DNA from: Nostoc favosum CHAB5714
GTDB lineage: Bacteria; Cyanobacteriota; Cyanobacteriia; Cyanobacteriales; Nostocaceae
Reading direction: 5' to 3'
DNA length: 64,000 nt
Assembly (NCBI RefSeq): GCF_020829495.1
Contig: NZ_JAIVFQ010000032.1
Coordinates: 1 to 64,000, forward strand
How positions within the stretch are numbered: position 1 is the stretch's first letter; each line of letters begins with the position of its first letter. The translations under genes were made by a program, and so were the position numbers. The notes below the pieces were generated by a model. That model did not search any database. It was given only the letters and a program-made list of their open reading frames with translations, and was not told the DNA's origin. Of the stretch, positions 3,575-40,434 are shown piece after piece.

Positions 3575-4270
3575 GTGAATTTGTCATCATTAAGTTTTTT
3601 TCGCAGTTTACGTAAAGATAACCAGCAATTTGCTGTAATTGGGTTAGGTCGCTTTGGTAGGTCTGTCTGTTCCACACTGCACAATTTTGGCTATCAAGTG
3701 CTAGCAACAGATATTGATGAAAAACGAGTTTCAGAAGCATTAACTGAGGGAATAGTTGGTCATGCTTTGCAACTAGACTCTACAGAACCAGCCGCACTCA
3801 AAGAAGCTGGAATTTTTGAATTTGATACTGTAATTGTAGCGATTGGCAACTACGTTCAAGAAAGCATCATAACTACCCTAAATGTGAAAGAGGCTGGTGT
3901 ACCCCACGTCGTTGCCAAAGCTTCTAGTGAAGTTCACCGTAAACTGTTGCAGCGAGTAGGAGCAGATCATGTTGTTTTTCCTGAGTATGAAGCGGGTTGT
4001 GCCTTAGCGCGTACCCTTACTAAACCAGCAATCTTAGATCGGTTTGACCTAGACCCAGATAACAGTATTGTAGAGTTGATTGTGCCTGATGAATTTCACG
4101 ACAAAACAATCACTGAGCTTCAACTTCGTAACCGCTACGGTTTAAATTTGCTAGCAGTGAGCCAGGATGGTAAATTTATAATTAATCCTGACCCCACCAA
4201 GCGTTTAGAGCGTGGTTCAGCAATGGTAGTTATTGGCTGCAACAAAGATATCAATCGTTTGCCGATTTAA
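3575..4270 (+). CDS. ktrA: KtrA, RCK-domain regulatory subunit of K+ uptake
   Basis: A 231-residue cytosolic TrkA/KtrA protein. The RCK_N Rossmann domain (about 18-135) opens with VIGLGRFGRSV, the dinucleotide-binding glycine motif, and has the acidic residue D46 at the end of beta-2. The RCK_C domain (about 148-228) follows. It binds nucleotides (ATP/ADP or NAD(H) in the family) and gates KtrB, encoded just upstream. The start is a GTG at 3575 with an AAGGA motif about 9 bp before it. No in-frame ATG is better placed. The pairing of ktrB and ktrA on one strand supports a two-subunit transporter; the repeat-filled gap leaves open whether they are co-transcribed. Confidence 0.93.
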   Translation: MNLSSLSFFRSLRKDNQQFAVIGLGRFGRSVCSTLHNFGYQVLATDIDEKRVSEALTEGIVGHALQLDSTEPAALKEAGIFEFDTVIVAIGNYVQESIITTLNVKEAGVPHVVAKASSEVHRKLLQRVGADHVVFPEYEAGCALARTLTKPAILDRFDLDPDNSIVELIVPDEFHDKTITELQLRNRYGLNLLAVSQDGKFIINPDPTKRLERGSAMVVIGCNKDINRLPI

Positions 4271-4271
4271 A

Positions 4272-4318
4272 AAAGTTAGGAGTTGAGAGTTAGGAGTTAG
4301 GAGTTAGGAGTTAGAGTT
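4272..4318. repeat. TTAGGAG heptamer repeats
   Basis: Five or so imperfect copies of TTAGGAG lie between the convergent ktrA and TPR genes. They are another short tandem repeat of the cyanobacterial heptamer class. Confidence 0.75.
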
Positions 4319-4319
4319 A

Positions 4320-4841
4320 TTAACTATCAAAGAAAATAAAAGCGCCAGTCGCCAGAATTGATTCTGAATTCTGACGACTGGCGGATCCCTGATTATATAA
4401 ACTGACTCCCAAGTTATAGTAAGCTGAGGCATTTTTAGGATTTAGGCGAATAGCTTGCCGATAAACAGAAATAGCCTCAGAAGGTTGACCATGAATTGCT
4501 AGCAAATTTGCCATATTGTTGTAGGCTGTGGCATTTTTAGGATCTAGCAGCAAGGCTTGGCGATAAGTGCCGATCGCAGGCTCTATTTGACCTTGTTGTT
4601 GCAAGGCGATCGCTAAGTTAAAATAAGCGTTGGCATTGCTGCTATCTAAATTAATTGCTTTTTGGTATGTTGCGATCGCATCCTCAAGCTGTCCTTGTTC
4701 ATACAGCGCCAAACCCAGATTATACAGTGCTGCTACCCTTGTGGAATCTATCACAAGACTCTGGCGATAAGCTATAATAGCTGCCTCTTTTTCTCCTTGT
4801 TGGTGCAACACTAACCCCAGGAACATTTCTAGAAAAGCCAC
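4320..4841 (-). pseudogene. TPR-repeat protein, probably truncated at both ends
   Basis: The frame encodes at least four tetratricopeptide repeats of 34 residues (AAYYNLGLALYEQGQ-like units, each ending in a LDPKNA or LDSSNA turn), so it is a protein-interaction scaffold. Both ends look damaged. The only start is a GTG at 4841 (or the ATG at 4826) with no ribosome-binding site and a TAA nine codons upstream, and the first repeat begins immediately. At the 3' end a repeat stops at LGVSLYNQG and the last 22 codons come from a hairpin (4341-4383) with CGCCAGTCG/CGACTGGCG arms. It lies 51 bp downstream of queA on the same strand. It may still be translated as a small TPR protein. Confidence 0.6.
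4341..4383. repeat. Hairpin repeat forming the 3' end of the TPR gene
   Basis: The arms CGCCAGTCG and CGACTGGCG enclose a second pair CAGAATT/AATTCTG. Related CAGAATTC..GAATTCTG words occur near 25.47, 40.51 and 58.0 kb. Its insertion replaces the expected TPR sequence and supplies the last codons of the gene. Confidence 0.6.
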
Positions 4842-4892
4842 AAATAATGCCAGTGGACGGATGGATTAAAACTTCAGCGAACCTTATTGCCC

Positions 4893-6875: not shown

Positions 6876-7418
6876 TTAACCATTATCAATTGAAGAGTCG
6901 AAAGCTGCCAGAATGTATTCTTGCAGCTTAAACTTGTATCCGGCAGCTGATGAAGTAGCTAGAGCTTCCTGGGTTGCTGTAACCACAGTCAGATTTTTTG
7001 ATATCCTTTGACAGTAGACAATAGCAACATCAAATCGACAAGAATAATCTGCCTTCTCAGGGTACTGGGCTAAAAACATTCCAGCTGTGCGCGAGATTTT
7101 TGCTTGCTTTTGTGGGGTGATTGCGCTTCTTCCCCCTGCATCCCAACTACCTGAACTGCGGGTTTTGACTTCCACAAATGCCAATAATGAGTGGAGAGTG
7201 CTGATTCCTGTTAGCGGATAGCTATGGTTTAGTCCGTGCTGAGTAAGGAGTTTTTCCCCAGTTCGTCCATCATGTTGGGCGATTATATCGATTTCTCCCC
7301 AGCGACTGGAAAAGCGACGATGGAGAATAATCCAACCTGTAGATTGCAACCATTGGGCTACTAGGTCTTCTCCTAATTGACCAATATCTGGATAATGAGA
7401 TGGAGGAAGGTTAGCCAT
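6876..7418 (-). CDS. YraN/UPF0102-family putative endonuclease
   Basis: A 180-residue protein with the UPF0102 core: [13 protein letters not shown] near residue 13-25, GEIDIIA at 41-47 and [10 protein letters not shown] at 81-90. D44, E83 and K85 match the D...ExK metal-binding set of the PD-(D/E)xK nuclease fold. Family members are usually about 120 residues. Here there is an insertion of roughly 25 residues between the Asp and the ExK motif, and a C-terminal extension of about 40 residues. The biological role of YraN proteins is poorly known; a Holliday-junction-resolvase-like fold is predicted. Its start almost touches the divergent pentapeptide-repeat gene. Confidence 0.85.
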
Positions 7419-8038
7419 TGACTAAAAATATCATGAATTCTATGAATTCTAGGTTAAGCGATGCCTGCGGCGGGCTACGCCTACGCATAACAGGTTCTAA
7501 GCGAAACTCATCCCGTACTGAGTTGGGGCGCAAGTGTAAAACAGACCATAAGATTTGGGCAAGTATACTCAGCTTATTCCTTTGGGGAATAGTTGGCATC
7601 ACGGCAACCGTCGGTTTTGCTCCCACAGCTTTAGCACTTGAATATAATAAAGAAATTTTGGTTGACGCTGATTTCTCAGGACGTGATTTAACAGATTCCA
7701 GCTTTACCAAAGCTAATCTTCGCCAGAGCAACTTCAGCCACGCTAATTTGAACGGTGTGAGTTTCTTTGCAGCAAATTTGGAGTCTGTGAATTTGGAGGG
7801 AGCTGACTTGAGAAATTCCACTTTAGACTCGGCTCGTTTAGTTAGAGCAAATTTGACAAATGCACTGTTGGAGGGTGCTTTTGCTGCTAACGCCAGATTT
7901 GATGGCGCAATCATTGACGGGGCAGATTTTACCGATACGCTGCTGCGTTCCGATGAGCAAAAAAAATTGTGCAAACTTGCCAAGGGAACTAATCCCATTA
8001 CAGGACGAGATACGCGTGACACGTTATTTTGTCCTTAG
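7418..8038 (+). CDS. Secreted or membrane-anchored pentapeptide-repeat protein
   Basis: A pentapeptide-repeat domain at about residues 78-180 shows A(D/N)LxX units ([21 protein letters not shown]...). It should fold as a right-handed beta-helix and end in a short tail with two Cys ([13 protein letters not shown]). Before it lies a hydrophobic segment (about 47-72) ending in ALALE, which looks like a signal peptide or anchor for thylakoid-lumen or periplasmic export. The TTG at 7418 is the furthest upstream start, with ATG codons at 7433 and 7442. All of them include a 29-nt palindromic repeat (7458-7486) read as [10 protein letters not shown], so the natural N-terminus may have been extended by that repeat. 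The function of such domains varies. Confidence 0.8.
7458..7486. repeat. HIP1-split 29-nt repeat, copy C (inside a coding region)
   Basis: It begins GCGATG and ends TACGC, with a GCGGCGGGC centre. Removing 21 nt leaves GCGATCGC. It lies in frame within the N-terminal codons of the pentapeptide-repeat gene. Confidence 0.75.
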
Positions 8039-9503: not shown

Positions 9504-9799
9504 TATTTACTAAGTTATGGCAAGCCGAAAAACTTAGTAATCATAGGCAAAAGCTTACCACATACTTCAACCAGCTTTTCAGTAGTAGATAAATCAGCGA
9601 TGTCTACGACGGGCTACGCCAACGCACCTTTCAAGAACTTGAGGGCTGTTTTTGCTATCTTCTGCATGGCTCCATTTTATGGGTTTGGCAGTGGGGCGAT
9701 CGCATCTGTGTTCAAATGGGAACCATAAGAAAATAAGCTAATACCATACTTTGGTATGAAGCAAAGAAAGGTAATACATCACACTAAATTGGTTTACCC
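9504..9799. other. Gap with HIP1-split repeat copy D
   Basis: A 296-bp gap. It holds the 29-nt HIP1-split repeat at 9597-9625 and a HIP1-like word near 9695. TTGGTATGAAG near 9753-9763 may be part of a promoter for the following gene. No coding frame is convincing. Confidence 0.6.
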
Positions 9800-11179: not shown

Positions 11180-11312
11180 AGAGTTTACTTGAACTTGCTC
11201 CTGTCAACACTGTAACAAGACATAAGCTAAGAAATGGTCGTAGACTATAAAAGTCAAAAAGCTTGAACAAAGACTGATCACAACATTGAGCAGGAACTAG
11301 CTAAAAAACAGC

Positions 11313-11345
11313 GATGGGCTACGCCCTACCGGAGGCGATCGCACT
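11313..11345. repeat. Palindromic GC-rich repeat containing HIP1
   Basis: GCGATGGGCTACGCCCTACC followed by GGAGGCGATCGC. It shares the GGGCTACGCC core of the HIP1-split repeat family but has a different arrangement, so it is a related variant. Confidence 0.45.
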
Positions 11346-39304: not shown

Positions 39305-40012
39305 AGTGGAAGTTCCTTTATTCCCGTTCCAAGGTGCTTCTAGCCACTAAGATCCAAGGTGCCACAATTGGCTGTCCCTGACTACAGTAGACCTATAAGA
39401 GATTGTAGTTTATCAATGAATTTTGGTGGCAGTATTAATTGTGACGCATATTAGATGAATATTTAATATATTGGCAGGTAATTGCTTATAAATGGGGAGT
39501 GGGGAGTGGGGGAAGCAGGGGAAGATGAGGGAGAAATCAATTCAAAATTTAAAATTAAAGAACTTCTGCCTTCTGCCTCCTTTTTCCCAATGCCCTATTG
39601 TCAAGAACCTGGCAATTGCGGAGGGTCAACGTTAAACCATTTTTGATAAATTTGCTTGTAAGTGCCATTGGATAACAAAGTCGCTATACCTTCGTTAATT
39701 GCATCCAGATGGGGGGAGTCTTTAGGTGTAGCAATCCCGTAGTATTCTTCAGTAAGCAGATCGGCAACAACTCTGATGCCTTGGAGTTTGCCATTTTTAA
39801 TCGCATACAAAGTTGCGAAAGCATCGCTAACGACAGCATCAACATTGCCATTGAGCAAGTCTTGGAAAAATTCTGGCCCAGAATTAAAAGTACTAATTTT
39901 GGCGGTGGGGATGGTTTTGGCAAAATCTGCCCCAGTGGAACCAATTTGTACAGCAATTTTTTTACCTTTGAGACTATTGAAGTCTTTAATATTTTGATTG
40001 TCTTCGCGGACA

Positions 40013-40041
40013 GCGTAGGCGTAGCCCGTCGTAGACATCGC
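40013..40041. repeat. HIP1-split 29-nt repeat, copy A
   Basis: On the coding strand it begins GCGATG and ends TACGC. Deleting 21 nt restores GCGATCGC and the expected GLAIAVRED protein sequence. The copy is in frame and tolerated. Confidence 0.85.
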
Positions 40042-40204
40042 TAGTCCGGCTTTAAAATAAGGTCGTGAAAAAGCAATTGTTTTCAGGCGTTCGGCGGTAA
40101 TCGTGATTCCGCTAATTGCTGCATCGACTCTTTTAGCTTGCAAAGTCGAGATCATGCCATCAAAGGGCAGACTTTCAAACTGGACTGCAAAACCTGCTAC
40201 CTTA

Positions 40205-40233
40205 GCGATGCCTGCGGCGGGCTACGCCAACGC
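40205..40233. repeat. HIP1-split 29-nt repeat, copy B (adds a stop codon)
   Basis: It begins GCGATG and ends AACGC on the plus strand. Deleting 21 nt restores GCGATCGC and the expected LMNAIAKVAG protein sequence. In the gene's orientation the inserted codons contain TAG at 40222-40224. Confidence 0.88.
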
Positions 40234-40434
40234 ATTCATCAAATCAATATCAAAACCTTCCAAGTTCCCGCTAGCCCTTTGGATTTCAAAAGGGATAAAC
40301 GTAGGGTCTGTGGCAACCTTGAGAAGTTTAGCATCTGGGTTAGTAGTGGGATAGAAATTTTTACAGGCAATAATCAGTAGCAGACAGCCTAAGCTTAGAA
40401 TTAGCTGGTGCCACTTGAGGTTAATTAATTTCAC

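Follow-up and report, generated by a model that had tools for sequence, protein, structure and literature searches.

The window, by which we mean the whole 64,000-nt stretch of DNA analysed here, carries on its minus strand a gene for an extracellular solute-binding protein, and this gene contains two of four 29-nt repeats, each consisting of a HIP1 octamer (GCGATCGC) split by 21 nt (GCGAT + 21 nt + CGC). An earlier note on this DNA had reported the four copies and the opened octamer, and both were confirmed by pattern scanning. With an IUPAC pattern at up to 3 mismatches, the four copies were the sole matches in the window, which holds 60 HIP1 sites, and no match at up to 3 mismatches was obtained in 100 dinucleotide shuffles of the window. 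The 5 + 21 + 3 division is unambiguous in all four copies, because GCGAT is followed by G and not C, and CGC is preceded by A and not T. The 21-nt repeat is SDR5, a mobile repeat of Nostoc cyanobacteria whose insertion point lies inside HIP1. The features are as follows:

7458..7486, plus strand: SDR5 copy, in sense with the open frame 7418-8038 (+), lying at the 5′ margin of that frame or a short way ahead of its true start
9597..9625, plus strand: SDR5 copy, with no ORF of at least 60 aa across it
39601..40434, minus strand: gene for the extracellular solute-binding protein (PF00497, SBP_bac_3), whose frame is broken by a single TAG that the 40205 copy carries
40013..40041, minus strand: SDR5 copy, gene-sense, GTC..GAC stem, frame open (AMSTTGYAY)
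40205..40233, plus strand: SDR5 copy, antisense to the SBP_bac_3 gene, GCC..GGC stem, TAC loop, CCAACGC end, in-frame TAG; the site is empty (GCGATCGC) in the sister genome L007
54043..54079, minus strand: decayed SDR5-like copy, second hairpin with 8 extra nt

The earlier note knew of no described link between such a repeat and HIP1, but this link is already published: a passage of PMC4390886 (Elhai 2015), citing Elhai et al. 2008, places SDR5 between nucleotides 3 and 4 of HIP1. All four window copies show this arrangement on the complementary strand (GCG^ATCGC), and because GCGAT^CGC read on the opposite strand is GCG^ATCGC, the junction is the same point as that of published SDR5. The 2008 abstract of Elhai and colleagues, reportedly in Genome Res 18:1484, is said to describe eight SDR families of 21–27 nt, a range that includes the 21-nt element of the window. 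It is also said to place SDR5 exclusively within HIP1 and to regard RNA intermediates as probable, and the secondary structure of SDR5 was reportedly backed by compensatory change. Passages of the literature citing the 2008 title yielded no SDR5 detail beyond that in PMC4390886.

Canonical copies have the layout GCGAT-[GYC TNC GRC G GGC TAC GCC WA]-CGC. The repeat was initially described as palindromic. SDR5 is not, however, a single long palindrome; the most suitable reading is a pair of 3-bp hairpins, GYC-TNC-GRC and GGC-TAC-GCC, flanked by the HIP1 halves. Among 85 TAC-loop copies in the source genome of the window, the first stem is paired in 82 and takes two forms (48 GTC..GAC and 34 GCC..GGC; 2 mixed and 1 other), which is the compensatory change attributed to SDR5. 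The predicted folding energy showed no improvement over shuffles, and the structural reading therefore rests on covariation. TGC, TTC and AAA are recurrent second-loop variants in many genomes, among the loops listed, and the common AAA second loops ruled out a GNA-triloop reading.

The source genome (8.50 Mb, 241 contigs) contains 107 copies by a loose pattern, 100 by a stricter one and 119 when cores are counted irrespective of flanks; the reversed pattern had no match in this whole genome. In a search of 59 genomes, SDR5 was present in all 34 other genomes of the same genus (median 48 copies, source genome included) and in only 3 of 24 genomes outside it, while SDR5 variants occurred in 53 of 53 genus genomes searched, the source genome included. 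Exact cores numbered 2326 in the 38 of 59 genomes (source genome included) that had any core; 1827 were flanked by exact HIP1 halves, and 499 lacked exact HIP1 halves by the patterns used. A viral search gave an exact SDR5 match on one contig, IMGVR_UViG_2845860650_000005 (IMG/VR, 119 kb; L250:3014-3042).

It had been proposed that the element inserts into HIP1 sites or arises at them, and that orthologous empty sites would mostly be HIP1. The comparison loci were the surroundings of the aminotransferase gene adjoining the finding (55 loci, 44 of which, from Nostoc and near kin, were used in the converse test described below), and empty-site flanks were mapped in 62 sequences. Of 348 sites mapped in other loci, 269 were 8 nt and 57 were 29 nt long, with 22 of other lengths (0, 6, 7, 9, 21, 30 and 37 nt), the pairs not being independent. 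With the same dependence among pairs, 194 of the 269 8-nt sites were exactly GCGATCGC and the remainder were 1–3 mismatches off; flank and per-site mapping taken together, mapped empty alleles were HIP1 or 1–4 mismatches from it. At least one exact GCGATCGC allele was found at 11 of the 13 distinct sites having any empty allele, the two exceptions being a site represented by a single allele in L013 (GCGATTGC) and a decayed site in L224. None of 24,181 control sites 47–55 nt away was HIP1. In the converse test, which started from 863 usable HIP1 sites, gaps of 28–30 nt were observed in 152 of 12,772 ortholog pairs, compared with 1 of 24,707 control pairs. Distinct filled positions (sites of at least 12 nt) numbered 21, with 15 of 29 nt, four of 26 nt, one of 30 nt and one, unrelated, of 12 nt, so that the expected insert of 21 nt is the usual one and length variants are few. 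These data uphold both the prediction for empty sites and the insertion half of the proposal.

Canonical copies have a constant length and no target duplication, and old copies carry point mutations. In per-site mapping, from which sites with fewer than four mapped loci were left out, the copies at 7458..7486 and 9597..9625 proved to be old and stable: with the window's own counted, 23 of 24 mapped loci had the first site filled and 19 of 19 the second. Among looser copies in the flank mapping, 14 of 36 lacked one or both HIP1 halves; one of these, in L026, has incomplete halves and maps to a 6-nt non-HIP1 site, and we take it not to be SDR5. The 26-nt sites represent a single 18-nt shortened element, in which the first hairpin is kept and the second replaced (L009, L011, L017 and L019, positions 4221-4869), and which is scattered on the tree. 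Variants ending in ATCGC, with an inverted second hairpin, occur in L027 (2093), L050 (3842; reverse-strand coordinates) and L191, and could equally be a 19-nt insert plus a 2-nt AT duplication. At 11311..11342 (+) in the window, the unit GCGAT+GGGCTACGCCC...+GCGATCGC has a HIP1 site preceded by 24 additional nt; L192 is without them, and L191 has an SDR5 variant in that HIP1. This unit is readable as a 24-nt insert at the GCGAT^CGC point. In L208 and L233, a second insert of 24–25 nt (TCACTGA...) lies within SDR5 at GACGG^GCTACGCC, and is apparently another short repeat nested in SDR5.

Within the solute-binding protein gene, deletion of 21 nt had been said to restore the family sequence, and LMNAIAKVAG and GLAIAVRED do occur in relatives without the inserts. 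The suggestion that 21 nt preserves the frame is correct for length, and for the 40013 copy, across which the frame is open, but the 40205 copy splits the gene: it is antisense, the translation reads ..ALA*PAAGI.., and its TAG lies in the gene frame, so that the ORF ends there. The gene alignment comprised 36 regions, several of them partial or rearranged, in which the 40013 site was filled in 5 and the 40205 site in 9, counting a remnant in L009 and a 22-nt form in L019. The 22-nt form causes a frameshift, and the remnant has GAG where the window reads TAG. Six relatives carry a full 21-nt insert at the 40205 site, and none of them has the stop: the codon is CAG in L014, L017, L024 and L039 and TCG in L025 and L033; five of the six have an ORF of 270–271 aa, and in L025 the frame is open across the insert and encodes 231 aa from a later start. 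Through the gene, the window and L007 are 99% identical, and L007 lacks both of the inserts that the window carries.

Filling of the two in-gene sites is patchy across the tree. When rows with readable sites were placed on a tree of the neighbouring gene, the 40013 site, filled in 5 genomes and empty in 24, required 5 changes; the 40205 site, with 7 full inserts and 22 empty genomes, required 6, or 8 for 9 if the remnant and the 22-nt form were included. On the gene's own tree, built from 28 rows without the insert columns, the corresponding values were 4 changes for 4 filled rows and 6 changes for 7, and a single clade of the seven filled 40205-site rows was rejected (p-AU 1e-11). We considered whether all the patchy fills were independent gains and dropped this for the 40205 site, where the copies share a TGC first loop (changed in one) and all end in CCAACGC. 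Whereas CCAACGC and a loop other than TAC would be favoured by selection against stops, the TGC first loop would not. Moreover, L025 and L033 share a GAC loop, with the empty L029 between them, and no GAC was present among the loops listed. Because these minority features are shared, we favour common descent at the 40205 site, with later absence by recombination or loss. At the 40013 site the copies are nearly identical and of consensus type, which fits repeated gain as well.

Compared with HIP1, SDR5 is underrepresented in genes: 18 of 84 copies of the source genome lay in frames open over 120 codons (copy masked), compared with 32 of 60 and 87 of 150 HIP1 sites. Those in genes were 16 sense and 2 antisense (p=0.001), and other window sizes gave 21 vs 3 and 11 vs 0. 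Divided by frame (source genome, 240-nt setting), the counts were 9 vs 0, 10 vs 1 and 2 vs 2, the third frame being unbiased; the frame that is stop-free both ways was the one with 10 sense and 1 antisense. All 137 copies, a set containing orthologous copies of the same sites, gave 23 sense and 4 antisense in genes. A hexamer-based gene call on the 137 copies (copy unmasked, 48 unplaced) gave 45 vs 4 in genes, with no bias in tandem intergenic (14 vs 9), upstream (20 vs 16) or downstream positions (12 vs 19); the contrast of in-gene copies with tandem-intergenic ones was weak (p=0.075), and that with all intergenic copies gave p=0.0025. Since there is no orientation bias outside genes, transcription-coupled insertion was rejected as the main cause of the bias within them. 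On one contig of 7.1 Mb, the 67 copies listed showed no replication-strand bias (p=0.34). The insert has no stop in any of its three sense frames; in antisense, stops fall in one frame, or in two for copies with a GTC..GAC stem. The simplest cause of the sense bias in genes is selection on the reading frame, and this bias suggests that the orientation pattern can serve as a readout of selection on the encoded peptide. The orientation bias in genes, the stop-codon differences and the patchy filling, as measured here, are possibly new.

As a whole, this information makes it very probable that SDR5 is a non-autonomous 21-nt mobile element of Nostoc, targeted to HIP1 at GCGAT^CGC through a putative trans-acting cutter and a putative hairpin intermediate. 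A trans-acting factor would cut or nick HIP1 at GCGAT^CGC, and a single-stranded intermediate able to form hairpins, either RNA or ssDNA, would be copied or joined at the cut; pairing would involve the 5-nt half, GCGAT, at one end and the 3-nt half, CGC, at the opposite end. Pairing by both HIP1 halves would explain the need for both of them and the exact insert. The insertion point also coincides with the cut position of PvuI- and AsiSI-type enzymes. Such a position fits the remark on directed cutting at HIP1 in a passage of PMC4390886, which describes the role of HIP1 as debated.

Alternatively, there may be no dedicated mobiliser, and repair of breaks or stalled forks at HIP1 might proceed by a switch of template to an SDR5 copy already present, guided by the 5- and 3-nt HIP1 halves that flank the copies. 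This is possible, though on balance rather unlikely. It agrees with the HIP1 target, with the exact insert and lack of duplication in canonical copies, and with the age and stability of two copies (23/24 and 19/19 filled), but 8 nt of homology is short. Moreover, HIP1 is common in other cyanobacterial families and yet only 3 of the 24 genomes from other genera had SDR5, and this points to a specific factor.

Mobility specifically through an RNA intermediate, reportedly the proposal of the 2008 abstract, draws support from the covarying first stem; taking both sides of the evidence, we consider it unlikely. A lean of the mixed first-stem pairs in TAC-loop copies also speaks for it. Over all loops in the 53 genus genomes there were 39 C..A and 21 T..G pairs (p=0.027), and in TAC-loop copies 32 and 11; flank clustering of 48 mixed-stem TAC-loop places gave 44 clusters, 33 with C..A only, 10 with T..G only and 1 with both. 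C..A is a wobble pair only on the strand that reads GCGTAGGC. The lean in TAC-loop copies is only a hint about the folded strand of an intermediate, and we do not rely on it, because it is confined to those copies: those with other second loops had 7 C..A and 10 T..G pairs. C would likewise be favoured at that position by an alternative long hairpin formed on the opposite strand, and the unbiased orientation outside genes also speaks against RNA.

It is very unlikely, in our estimate, that a Y1/RAYT-type transposase mobilises SDR5 as ssDNA in the manner of REP and IS200/IS605 elements, with hairpin recognition, a short 5′ target, no duplication and precise excision. The hairpin pair, the fixed 5-nt left flank, the lack of duplication and the patchy, exact absence at two in-gene sites would agree with such an enzyme. 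Y1 matches were found in 13 of 15 genomes searched (2 in G014, which is low in SDR5 with 11 copies, and 21 each in G000 and G025), and, by coordinates alone, two copies of the source genome lie near Y1 matches other than those fetched (C21, ~0.3 kb; C77, ~1.6 kb). However, Y1 matches were also present in 6 of 8 SDR5-free genomes tested, and the association had no support in the 30 Y1 loci fetched (of 112 matches; 96 kb; 17 of the 30 from SDR5-bearing genomes), which contained 0 SDR5-like copies. The SDR5 target takes in the right half too, unlike that of IS200/IS605. A passage of PMC3733652, citing Elhai 2008, describes cyanobacterial REP-like families without terminal tags, and we count this against Y1/RAYT as well.

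Considering the patchy fill at the two in-gene sites, the GAC loop of L025 and L033, and the CAG or TCG codons that all six full-insert relatives show at the position of TAG, one could also read SDR5 as reversible, with precise excision and insertion switching HIP1 between empty and filled, and with a 7-residue cassette kept in genes in sense, or in antisense only without a loop stop codon. We regard this as distinctly improbable; the observations are also explained by short-tract recombination of filled with empty alleles. Finally, the repeat does lie at HIP1, but its origin there by mutation, without movement, can practically be dismissed in view of 107 closely similar copies in the genome and of 8-nt empty alleles in close relatives.

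Across the genus, the data confirm HIP1 as the target of precise insertion. One of the smallest proposed mobile elements becomes testable, since SDR5 variants occur in 53 of 53 genus genomes and single HIP1 sites differ between close relatives.

Among known systems, Rickettsia palindromic elements (RPE) are likewise palindromic repeats lying in frame within protein genes, as described in a portion of PMC10969869. According to the same portion, RPE are ~150 bp long and encode a conserved peptide; SDR5, at 21 nt, falls outside that description. It also differs from RPE in having a fixed octamer target and in that 18 of 84 copies of the source genome lie in open frames. REP and REPIN sequences with their RAYT are likewise short, high-copy hairpin repeats, and N. 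punctiforme carries a RAYT, according to passages of PMC3116915 and PMC3733652; SDR5 differs from them in a target that includes both HIP1 halves and in the 30 Y1 loci without an SDR5-like copy. With regard to the GTAG-type tag next to REP hairpins, the complement strand of SDR5 shows GCGTAGGC in CTA-ended copies (78 of 85 TAC-loop copies of the source genome) and GCGTTGGC in CAA-ended ones (5 of 85). With SDR5 as described by Elhai et al. 2008, in the passage cited in PMC4390886, no difference was seen: the window element is like it in its insertion point within HIP1, its exactness and its Nostoc host.
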